Assembly: GCA_030591685.1 (NCBI GenBank)
Contig: JAUVAX010000010.1
Coordinates: forward strand, 1-64,000
Direction: 5' to 3'
Origin: Pseudobdellovibrionaceae bacterium
GTDB taxonomy: Bacteria > Bdellovibrionota > Bdellovibrionia > Bdellovibrionales > UBA1609
DNA length: 64,000 nucleotides
The position numbers and the translations under genes were made by a program. The notes under the pieces were generated by a model. The model saw only the letters and a list, made by a program, of their open reading frames with translations. It searched no databases and had not been told where the DNA came from. Shown here piece after piece: positions 15,955-56,057 of the stretch. The number at the start of each line of letters is the position of its first letter. Positions within the stretch are counted from its first letter, which is position 1.

Positions 15955-17124
15955 ATGCCTCGTATTTTACAAGTATGTAATACTGACTTTTATTTATCTA
16001 AATTTTTAAGGCCTCTTATTTTAGAGTTGCATCATCGTGGCTATGAAGTGGAGTGCCTTTGTAGTGGCACAAATACTCCCAGTGAATTTAAAACTCTTGG
16101 CATTAAGGTGCATAATTTTGATTTTCCGCAAAAAGCTTCAGTGAGTTCTTTTATACGAAGTACTCAAAAGATGACTGAATTTTTAAAAGAAAATAATTTT
16201 GATTGCATAAACAGCCACAACAGAAACGCTAGCATAGTGGCAAGGCTAGCAGCATGGCGTGCTAAAGTGCCAGTGAACTTATACACAGCGCACGGATTTT
16301 ATTTTCATGATGATCAGCCCTTTATAATAAATCAATTAACTGAACTTTTTGAAGGCCTGCTTTCAAAAATTACAACACACACTTTAAGTCAAAGCCACGA
16401 GGACACATTAAAGATGGTGAAGCATGGTTGGATTGATGAGAGCAAAATAACAACCATCGGCAACGGTATTAACGTTGAAAAGTTCTCACCAAAATCAAAT
16501 AAATCACAGCTTTGTAAAAAACTATCGTTAACTGAAAAATTTAGAGTGGTCACTGTCGGTCGCCTGGTAAAGGGTAAAGGCTTTAGAGACTTAATACATG
16601 CTTTTAATGACTTTCAAGAGGGCAAGGATGTTGAGCTTCTTTTTATAGGCGGAAACCTTAAAAACGATATAGAACCAGAGCATGATAGTTATACTGATCT
16701 TATTAAAAGCCTAGGGCTTGAGGATAAAGTTAAAATAACTGGCCTTATTGATAATGTCGAAGAGTACTTAGGGGCAAGTGATGTTTTTGTTCTGCCCTCG
16801 TACCGTGAAGGTGTACCCAGGGCACTACTAGAGGCTATGTGTATGCAGTTGCCAGTGATTGCTACTAATATAAGAGGCGCTAGAGAGATAATAAGAGTCA
16901 ACAGTAATGGGTTGTTATTTACGCCACATAACGTAACTCTGTTGACAGAACTTTTAGATGAGATTTTTTCTGATCATTGCAATCGCAAACGTATTGGCGA
17001 AGAGGGACGGTCCACAGTGCTCAAAAATTTTAATGAAATACAGTACACTAAAGTACAAGCAAACTTAATTGATCAACTTTTAATGTCACCAGGTAAAGGG
17101 GAGAGTCATGCCATCAGCAGTTAA
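15955..17124 (+). CDS. glycosyltransferase family 4 (GT-B fold)
   Basis: 389 residues. The N-terminal half has a Rossmann-like acceptor domain ('ILQVCNTDFYLSKFLRPLILEL'); the C-terminal half has 'VVTVGRLVKGKGFRDLI' and the nucleotide-sugar motif 'PSYREGVPRALLEAMCMQLP', the retaining GT4 E-x7-E region. It resembles enzymes that add a sugar to lipid-linked exopolysaccharide or capsule intermediates. Specificity is unknown. It overlaps the next gene (methyltransferase) by 17 bases and leads a three-gene surface-polysaccharide cassette. Confidence 0.9.
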   Translation: MPRILQVCNTDFYLSKFLRPLILELHHRGYEVECLCSGTNTPSEFKTLGIKVHNFDFPQKASVSSFIRSTQKMTEFLKENNFDCINSHNRNASIVARLAAWRAKVPVNLYTAHGFYFHDDQPFIINQLTELFEGLLSKITTHTLSQSHEDTLKMVKHGWIDESKITTIGNGINVEKFSPKSNKSQLCKKLSLTEKFRVVTVGRLVKGKGFRDLIHAFNDFQEGKDVELLFIGGNLKNDIEPEHDSYTDLIKSLGLEDKVKITGLIDNVEEYLGASDVFVLPSYREGVPRALLEAMCMQLPVIATNIRGAREIIRVNSNGLLFTPHNVTLLTELLDEIFSDHCNRKRIGEEGRSTVLKNFNEIQYTKVQANLIDQLLMSPGKGESHAISS

Positions 17125-17773
17125 ACAACAACAGGTGAAGCAATTTTTTGATGGGTACGCAAAAGACTTTAATAGTATTTACCAAGAGCATGAAAAGTCA
17201 GTTTTTAATCGCTCACGAGATCGATTTTTAAGGGCGAGCATGTTTAGTCGATTTGAAGAGGCTTATAATTACTTTAAGGCTCACAATATTAAGTCATTGA
17301 TAGACGTGGGCTGCGGGCCAGGGGTTCATGATGTGTTACTGGCAAAGGGCTTAGATATGAACATAACGGGCGTAGATATTTCAACGTCAATGATTGAGGT
17401 GGCAAAAAAAAATGCAAACGATAATAACTTAAGTGAAAAGTGTAACTTCAAAGTGGGTAACTTTTTTGATTTAAATTTTGATCAAAACTTTGAGGCGAGT
17501 TTGTGTGTAGGAGTGCTTGAGTATATTGAGGACCCCTCTTCGTTTATTAAAAAAATGATAGACTGTACAAGTAAAGCCGTGCTGTTTAGTTTGCCTGTAA
17601 AATACCACTGGCTCACACCACAGAGGTCACTGAGATATAAATTAAGAAAATGTCCCCTGTGGTTTTACACAGAAAATGACATACATAAACTCATGAAAAC
17701 AGTTGGAGTTGAGAGGTACATAATAAAAAAATTAAATCGAGACTACCTCGTTATTGTTGAAAAGGCTGAATAA
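17108..17773 (+). CDS. class I SAM-dependent methyltransferase
   Basis: 221 residues of a Rossmann-fold methyltransferase. Motif I is 'LIDVGCGPGVHDVLLA', motif II 'ITGVDISTSMIEVAKKNA', and motif IV 'EASLCVGVLEYIEDP'. The substrate is not evident. Its position between a glycosyltransferase and a polysaccharide deacetylase suggests methylation of a sugar or lipid-linked glycan. It starts within the end of the glycosyltransferase gene and its TAA is followed after one base by the deacetylase GTG, so all three appear co-translated. Confidence 0.88.
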   Translation: MPSAVKQQQVKQFFDGYAKDFNSIYQEHEKSVFNRSRDRFLRASMFSRFEEAYNYFKAHNIKSLIDVGCGPGVHDVLLAKGLDMNITGVDISTSMIEVAKKNANDNNLSEKCNFKVGNFFDLNFDQNFEASLCVGVLEYIEDPSSFIKKMIDCTSKAVLFSLPVKYHWLTPQRSLRYKLRKCPLWFYTENDIHKLMKTVGVERYIIKKLNRDYLVIVEKAE

Positions 17774-17774
17774 G

Positions 17775-18650
17775 GTGCATCTTTTAAGCATTGATTTAGA
17801 GGATTGGTTTCACCTTATTGAGGTCGAGCAAACGGCTCGACCAGAGCAATGGCAGTCCATGCCCTCAAGAGTCGAATTGATGACTCATAAACTATTAGAT
17901 TTTTTTGACACTCATCAGGTTAAGGCCACATTTTTTTGCCTAGGCTGGGTGGCAACAAAATACCCCTTTTTACTTAAAGACATTGTAAATCGAGGGCATG
18001 AGTTAGGGTGTCATTCAAATCACCACAGGTTAGTACATAAAATGACTCAGCTTGAGTTTAAAAAAGATCTTTTAGTCGCCATAGAGGCTATTTATAAGGC
18101 CTCAGGGGTCCATGTAAAAAGCTACCGCGCACCAGGGTTTTCAATCACAAAGGAGTGCTTTTGGGCTTTTGAGGAGCTCGCCTCTGCGGGTATTGTTTAT
18201 GACTCCTCTGTGTTTCCGGCCACTCACGCTCATGGGGGGATACCTGGGGCTCCAAAATGGCCATTTATTATTTCTACAAAATCGGGGGACATAAAAGAGT
18301 TTCCTATTTCTACTTTTAATTTTTTTAGCAAAGCAGTGGCTTTTAGCGGGGGAGGGTACTTTAGGCTGTTCCCTTTAAGGTTTCATAAGTTTAAGTTTCT
18401 AGATTATGAAGCACAAGATAAGCCTGTGATTACCTATTTGCACCCAAGAGATTTTGACCATGAACAGCCTAAAATTAAGTTGCCAGTGATAAGGACATTT
18501 AAAAACAATGTTAATATTAGTTCTACTTTTTACAAACTAGGTGAGCTTTTGAAGCTTTTTAACTTTGGCACACTCACTCAAGTAAGTGAGTGTGTTTCAT
18601 GGGATCAAGTTGAGGTGATTGAGTTAGAGACCTTTAAGGACGTGGCTTAG
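17775..18650 (+). CDS. polysaccharide deacetylase, DUF3473 type
   Basis: I start this at the GTG at 17775, one base past the upstream stop; the track uses a TTG at 17754 without an SD. About 291 residues. The NodB-like barrel has 'SIDLEDWFH' (Asp7/Asp10), 'ELGCHSNHHRLVH' (metal histidines) and 'SYRAPGFSI'. The C-terminal part ('FSGGGYFRLFPL', 'ITYLHPRDFD') matches the DUF3473 extension of deacetylases in exopolysaccharide/exosortase clusters. It likely de-N-acetylates a surface polysaccharide. No signal peptide is visible, so it would act on cytoplasmic, lipid-linked intermediates. It is last in the cassette. Confidence 0.88.
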   Translation: MHLLSIDLEDWFHLIEVEQTARPEQWQSMPSRVELMTHKLLDFFDTHQVKATFFCLGWVATKYPFLLKDIVNRGHELGCHSNHHRLVHKMTQLEFKKDLLVAIEAIYKASGVHVKSYRAPGFSITKECFWAFEELASAGIVYDSSVFPATHAHGGIPGAPKWPFIISTKSGDIKEFPISTFNFFSKAVAFSGGGYFRLFPLRFHKFKFLDYEAQDKPVITYLHPRDFDHEQPKIKLPVIRTFKNNVNISSTFYKLGELLKLFNFGTLTQVSECVSWDQVEVIELETFKDVA

Positions 18651-24471: not shown

Positions 24472-25662
24472 ATGAACTTAGGTATCGATGTTTTTTTAAA
24501 TTCAAAGAGTCATATTGATGAATTAATAGGCAAAAGAGTGGCTCTTCTGGCTCATCCAGCCTCTGTTAATGCTCAGCTTAAGCATAGTATAGATTTATTA
24601 TGGGCCTGTGAGCCGATCAATTTAGTATGTGCATTTGGCCCACAACATGGGATCACGGGTGATAAGCAATATAACATGGATGAATCAGAAGACTTCATTG
24701 ACCCTAAGTACAATATACCAATTTATAGTTTATACGGAGAGCATCGGCGCCCCACCGCCAAAATGATGGAGTCTTTTGATGTTTTGCTTTTTGATTTACA
24801 AGATGTTGGTTGCCGTATTTATACATATGTAGCCTCTTTAATATATATGATCGAGGCTTGTGCTCAGTCGAATAAGCCCATATGGATTTTAGATCGCCCT
24901 AACCCTGTTGGTCGCAAAGTTGAGGGTAGTTATTTGCGACCCGAGTGGAAGAGTTTTGTGGGTGAGGTAGAGCTACCCATGCGGCATGGGCTCACGCTAG
25001 CAGAATTGGCTTTATGGTATAAAGAGACACAAAAATTAGATGTTGAAATTAATGTAATAAAAATGCAAGGGTATGACCCTCAAAAAATAAGTGAGAGCCC
25101 TGTGCCTTGGGTGAACCCGAGCCCTCAAATACCGAGCCTAAAAACGTGCCGTGTATATAATGGGACCGTATTATTAGAGGGCACTCATTGGTCTGAGGGG
25201 CGTGGCACAACTCTGCCCTTTGAGCTCCTAGGGGCCCCCGAATTCCCCGCGGAGGCACTTGTTAAACAATTGTACGCCTTAAAGCCCGAATGGGTTGAGG
25301 GCTGTAAACTGAGGCCTTGTTATTTTACACCGACCTTTAATAAACATACTTCACAATTGTGCTCAGGGCTTCAAATACATACTGATGATATTATTTTTGA
25401 GGACCATAAATTTAACCCCTATAGGTTGATGGGTTTGATTTTTAAGGCTTATAAAAAAATAAGCCCCCAAGGGGCCACTTTATGGAGTCAGTTTCACTAT
25501 GAGTACGAAAAAGACCGTCGCCCGATAGATTTGCTCTCGGGGAGTGAATATTTTGCCAACTGGGTCGATGATAGCGAGGCGACCCCTGAAGACTTAGAGG
25601 GGTATTTACACCCTGATGAAGCCAGGTGGACTCAGGAAAGAATACCTTTTTTACTCTATTAA
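24472..25662 (+). CDS. namZ: NamZ-like (DUF1343) exo-beta-N-acetylmuramidase family protein
   Basis: 396 residues matching the DUF1343/NamZ family (GH171), which in Bacillus removes terminal MurNAc from peptidoglycan fragments. Conserved blocks are 'RVALLAHPAS', 'IPIYSLYGEHRRPT', 'LFDLQDVGCRIYTYV', 'ILDRPNPVG', 'PMRHGLTLAELA', and 'EGTHWSEGRGTTLPFE'. Where most members read 'GPEHG', this one reads 'FGPQHGITG' (Gln58), so the residue I believe to be the catalytic acid is changed. No signal peptide is visible, suggesting a cytoplasmic location. It is followed 48 bases later by a class II aldolase gene. A role in cell-wall sugar salvage is inference. Confidence 0.88.
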   Translation: MNLGIDVFLNSKSHIDELIGKRVALLAHPASVNAQLKHSIDLLWACEPINLVCAFGPQHGITGDKQYNMDESEDFIDPKYNIPIYSLYGEHRRPTAKMMESFDVLLFDLQDVGCRIYTYVASLIYMIEACAQSNKPIWILDRPNPVGRKVEGSYLRPEWKSFVGEVELPMRHGLTLAELALWYKETQKLDVEINVIKMQGYDPQKISESPVPWVNPSPQIPSLKTCRVYNGTVLLEGTHWSEGRGTTLPFELLGAPEFPAEALVKQLYALKPEWVEGCKLRPCYFTPTFNKHTSQLCSGLQIHTDDIIFEDHKFNPYRLMGLIFKAYKKISPQGATLWSQFHYEYEKDRRPIDLLSGSEYFANWVDDSEATPEDLEGYLHPDEARWTQERIPFLLY

Positions 25663-52942: not shown

Positions 52943-54280
52943 ATGAAGCTGCGTGGTAAGAAGCTGCTTATACTTTGTGATAAAAAAGATAGCTTTGAAA
53001 GCCTTGAGGCTTACTTAGCTCATAAGGGTGTTTACATTAAATTAATAACATCTGTTGAGGGTTATTTTAAAGCTTTACAGGAGTTTGAGCCTCATTATTG
53101 TTTGGTCAGTATTGATAATAAGGACCCCTACGTTTCTGACTTAATTGAAAACTTAAGAAAGGCAGAATTTATTGTTATCCCAACGGCTGAGACACATAAT
53201 CTTGAGGCCAGCAAAAGAATTGATGAGTATGAAATTGAATACTCCTTGTTTCCGCCTATTAACGGGCAAAAATTAGAAAATATATTAATGTTTTTAGAGA
53301 AAAAACAAGAGTCTGAGTCTGAAACTCTGCGATCTTTAAAGTATGAGAAAAAAGAAAAGCTACAGGCAAAAGACAGTCTTGATTATACAAAAGAAGAGAG
53401 CAAAAGTTTAAAAGAGATTCAGGAGCTATTTTATGAGACCAAAAACAACTCTGAAAAAGTAAGCGAACCCGATGACGTTGCATTAATTAAGAAGGCCATT
53501 GAGTACGAAATGAAGGATGGCAATGCGCCGACCGAGGAGAGCTCAGAGGAGCCTCTAGAGGAGCCGCCAGAGTTCACTCACAGCGGAATTATAGAGGTTG
53601 AACCTAAGGTGGTTAAGGAGATTGATCGCCTTTTTAATGACTCTATGAGTTCAATTAAGGGGTGCAAAAAAGTTGAACCACCTGAGTCCTTAAGGTCGAC
53701 AAGGGACTTCACTGTCTACGCTATAACAACTGAAAAAATGAGTGGGTACATCCTGACCACAGTGGATGCAGCTGTTGGAGATACAAAGGAACAAACTAAA
53801 ATTGAAGGTAAATTTGTAGAGTCACTTACTCGCTCTGTTGACGGACCTTTTGAGCTACAAAGGCTCACTTTGAGCTTTGAAGAATTTGACTTTAAAGACT
53901 GGATAGAGACCTATGATGGTGTTCTTAAGAGTTTTCAGCTTCAGGATATGGTTGTCTCATGGGCCTTTTTACAAAAGACTGAAAATGATTTAATTATGAG
54001 CTCTACAGAGCGTGAGGACATGGTGGGAGTTAACCTCTCTGAAATCACCCCTGAGGTGAAGGCCAAGAATGATCTGTATTTGCATCTTCCAAGTAATAAT
54101 AAATTTTTACTGTACACAAAAGAGGGTAACAATATTGCTTCTAATCAATTTTTGCGATTAAATAAATTTCAGATAAAAGAAATGCACATTAAAAAGGATG
54201 ATATTGATAAATTTAAAGACTACAAGGTTGAAAAAGAAATCACCTCAATGGTAAAAGGTCATAAAAAAGACGCCGCCTAA
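52943..54280 (+). CDS. protein with degenerate receiver-like N-terminal domain
   Basis: 445 residues. The first 120 fold like a response-regulator receiver ('KKLLILCDKKDSFESLEAYLAHKGV', 'HYCLVSIDNKDPYVSDLIENLR') but the acidic cluster and the conserved Lys are missing or altered, so it is probably a pseudo-receiver. Residues 120-230 are a charged, low-complexity linker ('EESSEEPLEEPPEFTHS'). The C-terminal 200 residues form a globular domain with no family I know. It may scaffold a signalling complex. GGGAG precedes the ATG. It is upstream of the formyltransferase-deacetylase gene in the same direction. Confidence 0.72.
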   Translation: MKLRGKKLLILCDKKDSFESLEAYLAHKGVYIKLITSVEGYFKALQEFEPHYCLVSIDNKDPYVSDLIENLRKAEFIVIPTAETHNLEASKRIDEYEIEYSLFPPINGQKLENILMFLEKKQESESETLRSLKYEKKEKLQAKDSLDYTKEESKSLKEIQELFYETKNNSEKVSEPDDVALIKKAIEYEMKDGNAPTEESSEEPLEEPPEFTHSGIIEVEPKVVKEIDRLFNDSMSSIKGCKKVEPPESLRSTRDFTVYAITTEKMSGYILTTVDAAVGDTKEQTKIEGKFVESLTRSVDGPFELQRLTLSFEEFDFKDWIETYDGVLKSFQLQDMVVSWAFLQKTENDLIMSSTEREDMVGVNLSEITPEVKAKNDLYLHLPSNNKFLLYTKEGNNIASNQFLRLNKFQIKEMHIKKDDIDKFKDYKVEKEITSMVKGHKKDAA

Positions 54281-54365: not shown

Positions 54366-56057
54366 TTGTTAGATCAAAAACGAATTATTGTATACACATC
54401 CGGCGGTGCAAATGCTGAACGGTTGGCGTTATTACAGAGTCTGTGTAATGACCCTGAAATAAAGATCATTGCTATTGTACAAGATAATTTTCGACTTTTT
54501 GGGTTAAAAAAAATTAAATTTCTATTTCAAAAATGGGGAGCTTTTGAATTTACTCGTTCAGTAAGCTTTCAAATGGCCAGGACTTTTTTTAGAAAAGTAT
54601 TCAGCAGTTTTGAGGCCTGGCATAATATTTTTGTTCCAATTCAACATAATCACTCTTATATGAAGTTTTGTAAATTACATTCTATTGAACTGTGGAAGGT
54701 TAAAGATATTAATTTAAAAGATAATACGGATAGATTAAAAGCATATAAGGCTGAGCTAGGTATAATTTTAGGTGGTCGCATTTTAAAACAACATGTACTG
54801 ATGGCCCCCAAAAAAGGAACTTTAAATATACATAAACATGATGCGAGGGCTTTTCGTGGTGGTTCACAGCTTGGGTTTATAGAGAAATTCAAAGGTGAAT
54901 CTAAAATTTGTGTCACCATTCATTTTGCAGTTTCAAAGGTAGATGCAGGGGACATTTTAGAGCTTGAGTGCATACCTATTGAAAAATATGACACCAATGA
55001 GAGCCTTTCAATTAAGGCTGGGCTATTAGGCAATAAGCTTTATTTAAAAGCAATTAAAGATACTTTGTCAGGTCAAGAGGTTAGGGTGCCCCAGGATTTA
55101 TCAAAAGGGGCCACTTATTACACCTCTCCTTATTGGCCGAGGTATAGGTTGTGGTCAAAAGTTAAAAAGCAGCAATTACAAGCCATCAATAAGGAGAGCC
55201 CAAGAGGGCCTTCAAGAAAAGCTAAAAAAATATTTTTTTATATAAGGCAATTGTATTTTTATTTAGCGCTCCCACTTTTAGCAAGAAAAAGACGAAACCT
55301 AGAGAAACATGGAAAGGCCCCTATCATTATCTTTTATTACCATGGAATTGGTAATTCAATGGAAAACTGGATGATGTTGCCTATAGAAACATTATGGAAG
55401 CAAATGGAGTATGCAAAAAAATATTTTAAAATAATAAGTCTCGGTGAGGCCGTTGAAAAGCTAAAAAGTGGTAGGAATGATAAAACGTCTGTCGTCTTTA
55501 CTTTTGACGATGGGTATAGAAGTTGCTTCACTCAGTTGAAGCCTCTTTTAGAAACATATAAAGTCCCAGCAACCTTTTTTGTTTGTTCTGAGTCTGCAAA
55601 ACATCAAGTTTCACATAGGCATGACTTTGACAAGGGATATCATGACGTGCAATTAATGACATCTCAACAAATTCTTGAGTCTTATAATTCTGGAATTGAA
55701 ATCGGTAGTCATGCGGAAAACCATGAAAACATGGCGAGCCTTAGTGACGAAAATTGTGAGCGAGTTCTTTTAGGTAGTAAAAATTCAATTGAAAATATCA
55801 TTAATAACGAAGTTTTATTTTTTTCTTACCCCTTTGGATCAATGAAACATCTCTCTAACTTTTCTATAAATGAGGCTCGTAAACATTACTCCGCTGTGTT
55901 TTCAGCTTATGGTGGATATAACATCCCGGATAAAGAGGACTTTCACTATCAAAGAATTGCCAACCCCGTTGAGCTGGCTTCGTTTAAAGCTATTGTGAAT
56001 GGTGTTCATCGATTTAAGCCCTATTATATGTGTCGACCAAAAAAATTTAATTCTTAG
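54366..56057 (+). CDS. fused formyltransferase-like and polysaccharide deacetylase protein
   Basis: 563 residues, TTG start. The N-terminal half (about 1-250) resembles formyltransferase N-domains: 'GTLNIHKHDARAFRGG' and 'IHFAVSKVDAGDIL' carry the Asn154/His156/Asp193 triad. A Lys/Arg-rich segment around 260-315 includes a hydrophobic stretch ('FFYIRQLYFYLALPLL') that may bind the membrane. The C-terminal half is a NodB deacetylase: 'FTFDDGYRS' (Asp381/382), 'IEIGSHAENHENM' (His449/453). The two halves could trim and acylate the same amino sugar. No glycan cluster is beside it. Confidence 0.82.
   Translation: MLDQKRIIVYTSGGANAERLALLQSLCNDPEIKIIAIVQDNFRLFGLKKIKFLFQKWGAFEFTRSVSFQMARTFFRKVFSSFEAWHNIFVPIQHNHSYMKFCKLHSIELWKVKDINLKDNTDRLKAYKAELGIILGGRILKQHVLMAPKKGTLNIHKHDARAFRGGSQLGFIEKFKGESKICVTIHFAVSKVDAGDILELECIPIEKYDTNESLSIKAGLLGNKLYLKAIKDTLSGQEVRVPQDLSKGATYYTSPYWPRYRLWSKVKKQQLQAINKESPRGPSRKAKKIFFYIRQLYFYLALPLLARKRRNLEKHGKAPIIIFYYHGIGNSMENWMMLPIETLWKQMEYAKKYFKIISLGEAVEKLKSGRNDKTSVVFTFDDGYRSCFTQLKPLLETYKVPATFFVCSESAKHQVSHRHDFDKGYHDVQLMTSQQILESYNSGIEIGSHAENHENMASLSDENCERVLLGSKNSIENIINNEVLFFSYPFGSMKHLSNFSINEARKHYSAVFSAYGGYNIPDKEDFHYQRIANPVELASFKAIVNGVHRFKPYYMCRPKKFNS

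Follow-up and report, generated by a model that had tools for sequence, protein, structure and literature searches.

A gene joining formyltransferase and deacetylase domains

The 64,000-nucleotide stretch of DNA analysed here as a whole (the window) carries on its forward strand a gene (54366..56057, TTG start) encoding a putatively bifunctional protein of 563 residues, with an N-terminal formyltransferase and a C-terminal polysaccharide deacetylase, for which full-length homologues exist elsewhere. No internal stop interrupts the 563 codons read. The GC content of the gene is 0.35, as compared to 0.39 for the window, and its two halves share the same composition (0.350 and 0.351). The presence of a formyltransferase and a NodB deacetylase in one 563-residue protein, as claimed in the original prediction, is borne out by the open frame, by Pfam domain search and by the recurrence of the architecture.

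Residues 106-230 (54681..55055) match Formyl_trans_N (PF00551) with 40.8 bits for a cut-off of 26.1 (E 2.5e-10). The preceding residues 1-105 correspond to the first part of the formyltransferase fold and to an insert (about 42-94) whose structure is poorly predicted. The catalytic residues N154-x-H156 (54825..54833) and D193 (54942..54944; within KVDAGD) were located by residue check and by alignment of the fusions, and are kept in all nine of them; in the window protein, whose formyltransferase half has a modest model confidence, the loop following H156 is divergent and unusual. The NCBIfam models matched by this half (fmt, ArnA and PurN) all remain below their cut-offs, that of the methionyl-tRNA formyltransferase Fmt at 50.7 versus 201.5 bits, and a separate Fmt-like gene is found elsewhere in the genome (G000:C41). 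The N-terminal half is predicted, from its domain match and catalytic residues, to be a 10-formyl-tetrahydrofolate-dependent formyltransferase of the Formyl_trans_N superfamily.

The C-terminal half matches Polysacc_deac_1 (NodB, CE4; PF01522) at residues 370-497 (55473..55856), with 78.9 bits for a cut-off of 23.1 (E 4e-22). Residue check and alignment identified motif 1, D381-D382 (55506..55511; in TFDDG), and motif 2, H449 and H453 in HAENH (an HxxxH motif; 55710..55724). These four residues are kept in eight of the nine fusions, the exception being the Planctomycetota protein G1349, where they are partly lost. All the catalytic residues originally listed are present at their predicted numbers, and neither half of the window protein has lost its set. 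Sequence comparison further revealed SAYGGYN (55902..55922), which marks the clade of deacetylases to which the fusions belong. The NCBIfam models PgaB, PdaB, IcaB and NodB were matched below their cut-offs (48.4 versus 321.9 bits for PgaB); none of the 16 families matched to E 0.1 is ArnD, a model whose presence in the library is unconfirmed. This half is predicted to be a metal-dependent amide hydrolase of the NodB/CE4 type.

A basic, moderately hydrophobic helix (residues 284-314; 55215..55307) was delineated by alignment, structural model and hydropathy. It had been described as a segment joining the two halves; the segment is present, but it is no joining invention: stand-alone members of the deacetylase clade (L080 and L083) carry its counterpart in their N-terminal part, and it belongs to the deacetylase module. 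Its best 19-residue hydrophobicity mean (1.19) is too weak for a clear membrane span, and the helix could perhaps contact the membrane surface. No export signal was noticed by reading the fusion protein sequence.

An AlphaFold2 model built on a 16-row alignment has a mean pLDDT of 74.2, with values mostly above 90 in the deacetylase core, mixed in the formyltransferase half and below 50 in the insert at 42-94. In Foldseek searches, the ArnA formyltransferase domain was among the best fold matches of the N-terminal half, and the E. coli PgaB, IcaB and PplD deacetylases were among the best solved-structure matches of the C-terminal half.

Distribution and phylogeny of the fusion

Five Burkholderiales and three Planctomycetota have proteins with the same order of domains, giving with the window nine fusions in three phyla. 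Three Burkholderiales fusions, including one on a contig of Scleromatobacter humisilvae BS-T2-15, came from a scan of species genomes with a three-row alignment as query, and profile searches added two from Burkholderiales (G675 and G641) and three from Planctomycetota (G1319, G1594 and G1349). The nearest relative of the window protein is G1594 (34% identity over 547 residues, E 2e-87); identity to the Burkholderiales fusions is 24-30%. The fusion is rare: it occurs in one of 369 genomes of the window's phylum, 3 of 399 Burkholderiales and 3 of 392 Planctomycetota. N-formyl amino sugars are known from bacterial O antigens, such as D-GalNFmA in P. aeruginosa PAK (PMC4773840), and this lead was the reason for searching Pseudomonadales, where none of 392 genomes harbours the fusion.

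No full-length homologue of the window protein was detected in 59 relatives or in the 369-genome phylum sample, so that an artefact stayed possible until the wider scans. A direct scan of genome contigs with the window sequence alone gave no match, plasmid and phage records matched one half only, and no fusion was found in viral contigs. Recurrence of the fusion in nine genomes, one of them from a named strain, and the equal GC content of the two halves rule out an erroneous joining or a chimera of two genes. We found no description of a formyltransferase-deacetylase fusion in the open-licence literature, a scope that makes this weak evidence of novelty, and the architecture may be catalogued (in InterPro, for example) without a function.

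Phylogenies of each half, which the original prediction had called for, agree in their main groups. In the formyltransferase tree, with methionyl-tRNA formyltransferases and other glycan formyltransferases as comparison set, the nine fusions and the partner gene of WOR-3 bacterium SM23_42 form one clade (support 99/97), within which the window protein groups with G1594 and G1349 (98/97). In the deacetylase tree, the window protein groups with G1594 (97/86) and, not firmly, with G1349 (94/79), and the five fusions from Burkholderiales form a group of their own (92/92). A larger, quick tree made earlier had united the fusions then known with the WOR-3 gene and with several deacetylases that stand alone (support 97). 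Branches are long, leaving the details of the trees unsure. A single fusion event is not rejected by the formyltransferase tree (p 0.105), whereas in the deacetylase tree the fusions are not one clade (p 1.5e-51); either stand-alone members that lost their partner or more than one fusion event would explain this scatter.

Gene neighbourhoods and variant architectures

In the window, the fusion is flanked by a gene that matches no Pfam family and by a convergent pair of ABC transporter genes. The former, upstream (52943..54280, forward strand, 445 aa), belongs to the context only. It had been called a pseudo-receiver gene; the gene exists, but the label is unsupported, because no Pfam family matches it at E 0.1. 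Its ortholog in genome G005 adjoins a lytic-transglycosylase-like gene and not a fusion, indicating that the neighbourhood is not conserved, and a link between this gene and the fusion is unsupported. No glycan genes adjoin the fusion in the window and, as anticipated, no Arn neighbours were seen beside it. About 36 kb away lie three overlapping genes (15955-18650) for a GT4 glycosyltransferase, a methyltransferase and a polysaccharide deacetylase with DUF3473; a NamZ-type exo-beta-N-acetylmuramidase gene is located at 24472-25662.

The location outside a glycan cluster holds for the window's genome but not for the relatives, where a neighbourhood check placed fusions and split pairs in glycan loci. 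The four Burkholderiales with annotated neighbours (G641, G371, L076 and L077) all carry the fusion in an exosortase-A (XrtA/PEP-CTERM) exopolysaccharide locus, recognized across the four by the models TIGR03015, TIGR03109, TIGR03087, TIGR03088, TIGR04063 or TIGR03108. In G641, exosortase A (TIGR03109) and a TIGR03088 glycosyltransferase flank the fusion, and genes matching TIGR03015, TIGR03019 and TIGR03087 are found upstream. In G371 (Rubrivivax, L216) the order is exosortase A, nucleotide-sugar dehydrogenase, fusion; the dehydrogenase is nearest to TviB, its 485.5 bits being below the TviB cut-off (592) and above that of general NDP-sugar dehydrogenases. TIGR03015, TIGR03006, TIGR04063 and TIGR03108 genes were identified in L076 and L077. 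The TIGR03006 product, the XrtA system polysaccharide deacetylase, thus occurs in the same loci as a separate gene (L076:2074-3075) distinct from the fusion. In G675, translations read in order as exosortase-like, fusion, glycosyltransferase and asparagine-synthase-like proteins. An exosortase is present in the genomes of G641 and G371; the window's genome gave no match to PF09721.

Variants of the architecture were also observed. The G1594 protein (918 residues) combines formyltransferase, deacetylase and GT4 glycosyltransferase in one chain, directly after a 521-residue frame with multiple membrane spans that reads, from its sequence, like an O-antigen ligase or polymerase. In the G1349 fusion (L256:1141-2652) the formyltransferase motifs are intact and those of the deacetylase degraded (TLDGG, H449 replaced), which means that the two activities need not be coupled. 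In WOR-3 bacterium SM23_42 (L081) the deacetylase and the formyltransferase are adjacent separate genes. Haloarcula halobia possesses a formyltransferase/deacetylase gene pair overlapping by four bases, with a deacetylase of a different subfamily. Formyltransferases of the fusion clade were seen only fused or adjacent to a deacetylase; deacetylases of the clade also occur alone, four of them with no formyltransferase within 6 kb (L079, L080, L083 and L110).

Among relatives in the window's order, GT4-deacetylase fusions are common (L002, L005, L008, L023-L025). These Bdellovibrionota proteins resemble the fusion in joining a deacetylase to a glycan enzyme, and give the best deacetylase matches in the phylum; they differ by their glycosyltransferase partner and by belonging to another deacetylase clade. 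Translations from a viral contig (L220:2123-4204) show an LmbE/PIG-L-like deacetylase gene overlapping a formyltransferase gene, followed by a NeuB-like synthase. The LmbE-like deacetylase being non-homologous, this arrangement suggests that the same pairing logic may have been reached there with another enzyme.

Proposed function and alternatives

That a formyltransferase and a NodB-type deacetylase are truly fused is strongly supported by the recurrence of the architecture, the agreement of the two trees in their main groups, the split pairs elsewhere and the retention of all catalytic residues. The chemistry originally proposed, replacement of an N-acyl by an N-formyl group, is the best reading of this enzyme. 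The C-terminal NodB/CE4 half would strip the N-acyl group off an amino sugar bound to a nucleotide or to undecaprenyl phosphate, and the N-terminal half would then transfer a formyl group from 10-formyl-tetrahydrofolate onto the freed amine. N-acetyl would thereby be exchanged for N-formyl without release of a free-amine sugar. We infer the action of both halves on the same nitrogen, as well as the order of the steps, the substrate, the cytoplasmic location and the activity. The open frame with both catalytic sets, the matching main groups of the two trees, the split WOR-3 pair and the recurrence of the fusion in Betaproteobacteria and Planctomycetota, often in surface-sugar clusters, point to a probable two-step exchange enzyme; the absence of adjoining glycan genes in the window, the stand-alone clade deacetylases, the uncoupling in G1349 and the divergent loop after H156 argue against it. 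On balance, we give an even chance to a bifunctional enzyme that works in the cytoplasm during surface-glycan assembly and swaps N-acyl, probably N-acetyl, for N-formyl on one amino sugar.

Known enzymes share parts of this design. PgaB and IcaB, the poly-GlcNAc N-deacetylases, have the same NodB/CE4 fold and motifs but are exported or surface-located and act on a polymer, whereas the fusion lacks a noticeable export signal and carries a formyltransferase domain. The sugar N-formyltransferases WbkC, FdtF, WlaRD and PseJ, matched directly or via a relative, share the formyl-tetrahydrofolate-dependent fold and a role in glycan pathways; their solved members are not fused to a deacetylase.

It is rather unlikely, though worth weighing, that the two halves make separate decorations of one glycan, the formyltransferase acting on one amino sugar (a 4-amino sugar, for example) and the deacetylase on a different residue within the repeat unit, with the fusion serving only to keep them in step. 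Same-clade deacetylases living without this formyltransferase, the G1349 fusion that kept its formyltransferase and lost the deacetylase motifs, and the GT4 fusions of the window's order, in which deacetylases join various glycan enzymes, are all in keeping with such independence. However, each formyltransferase seen from the clade had a deacetylase from a single clade as its fusion partner or neighbour, a tighter association than independent decorations need.

The original prediction also saw a logic like that of ArnA plus ArnD. In the Arn pathway, formylation comes first and deformylation later. An enzyme working in this manner would formylate an amino sugar nucleotide, which a glycosyltransferase would pass to a lipid carrier before deformylation by the C-terminal half. 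Both systems pair a formyl step on an amino sugar with a NodB-type hydrolase, and the N-terminal half has the formyltransferase fold and N-H-D catalytic set of ArnA; the fold match to ArnA, the glycosyltransferases adjoining fusions and the GT4 domain within G1594 would suit such a protective role. However, the ArnA model scores 45.7 bits against a cut-off of 777, and ArnA has a UDP-glucuronic acid dehydrogenase domain where the fusion has Polysacc_deac_1. No ArnD model is among the NCBIfam matches of the deacetylase half, which are to PgaB, PdaB and IcaB, and this half is fused, with no Arn neighbours seen beside the gene; moreover, both activities on one chain would risk a futile cycle. The resemblance is therefore one of logic and not of membership, and we consider Arn-like protection improbable. 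Least probable of all is a horizontally acquired enzyme decaying in the window's genome, one or both halves being inactive or without a pathway: its isolation from glycan genes in a genome lacking an exosortase match, the absence of full-length homologues from the samples of its family and phylum, the low GC content and the unusual loop would fit, but the frame is intact, every catalytic residue of both halves is kept and the halves share one composition.

To our knowledge, the route from N-acetyl to N-formyl at one sugar position has seldom been assigned to an enzyme. We tentatively propose, as a possibility short of an even chance, that the fusion is a recurrent amide-exchange enzyme converting an N-acetyl to an N-formyl amino sugar on one polypeptide, for exosortase-A exopolysaccharides and other glycan pathways. 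XrtA loci of this kind hold an asparagine-synthase-like amidotransferase which, together with the UDP-HexNAc 6-dehydrogenase-like gene just before the Rubrivivax fusion, suggests 2-formamido-hexuronic acid or its amide as a candidate product. If both activities indeed reside in one protein, the step from N-acetyl to N-formyl would become directly testable, and N-formylated sugars would be predicted in the poorly known exosortase-A exopolysaccharides.
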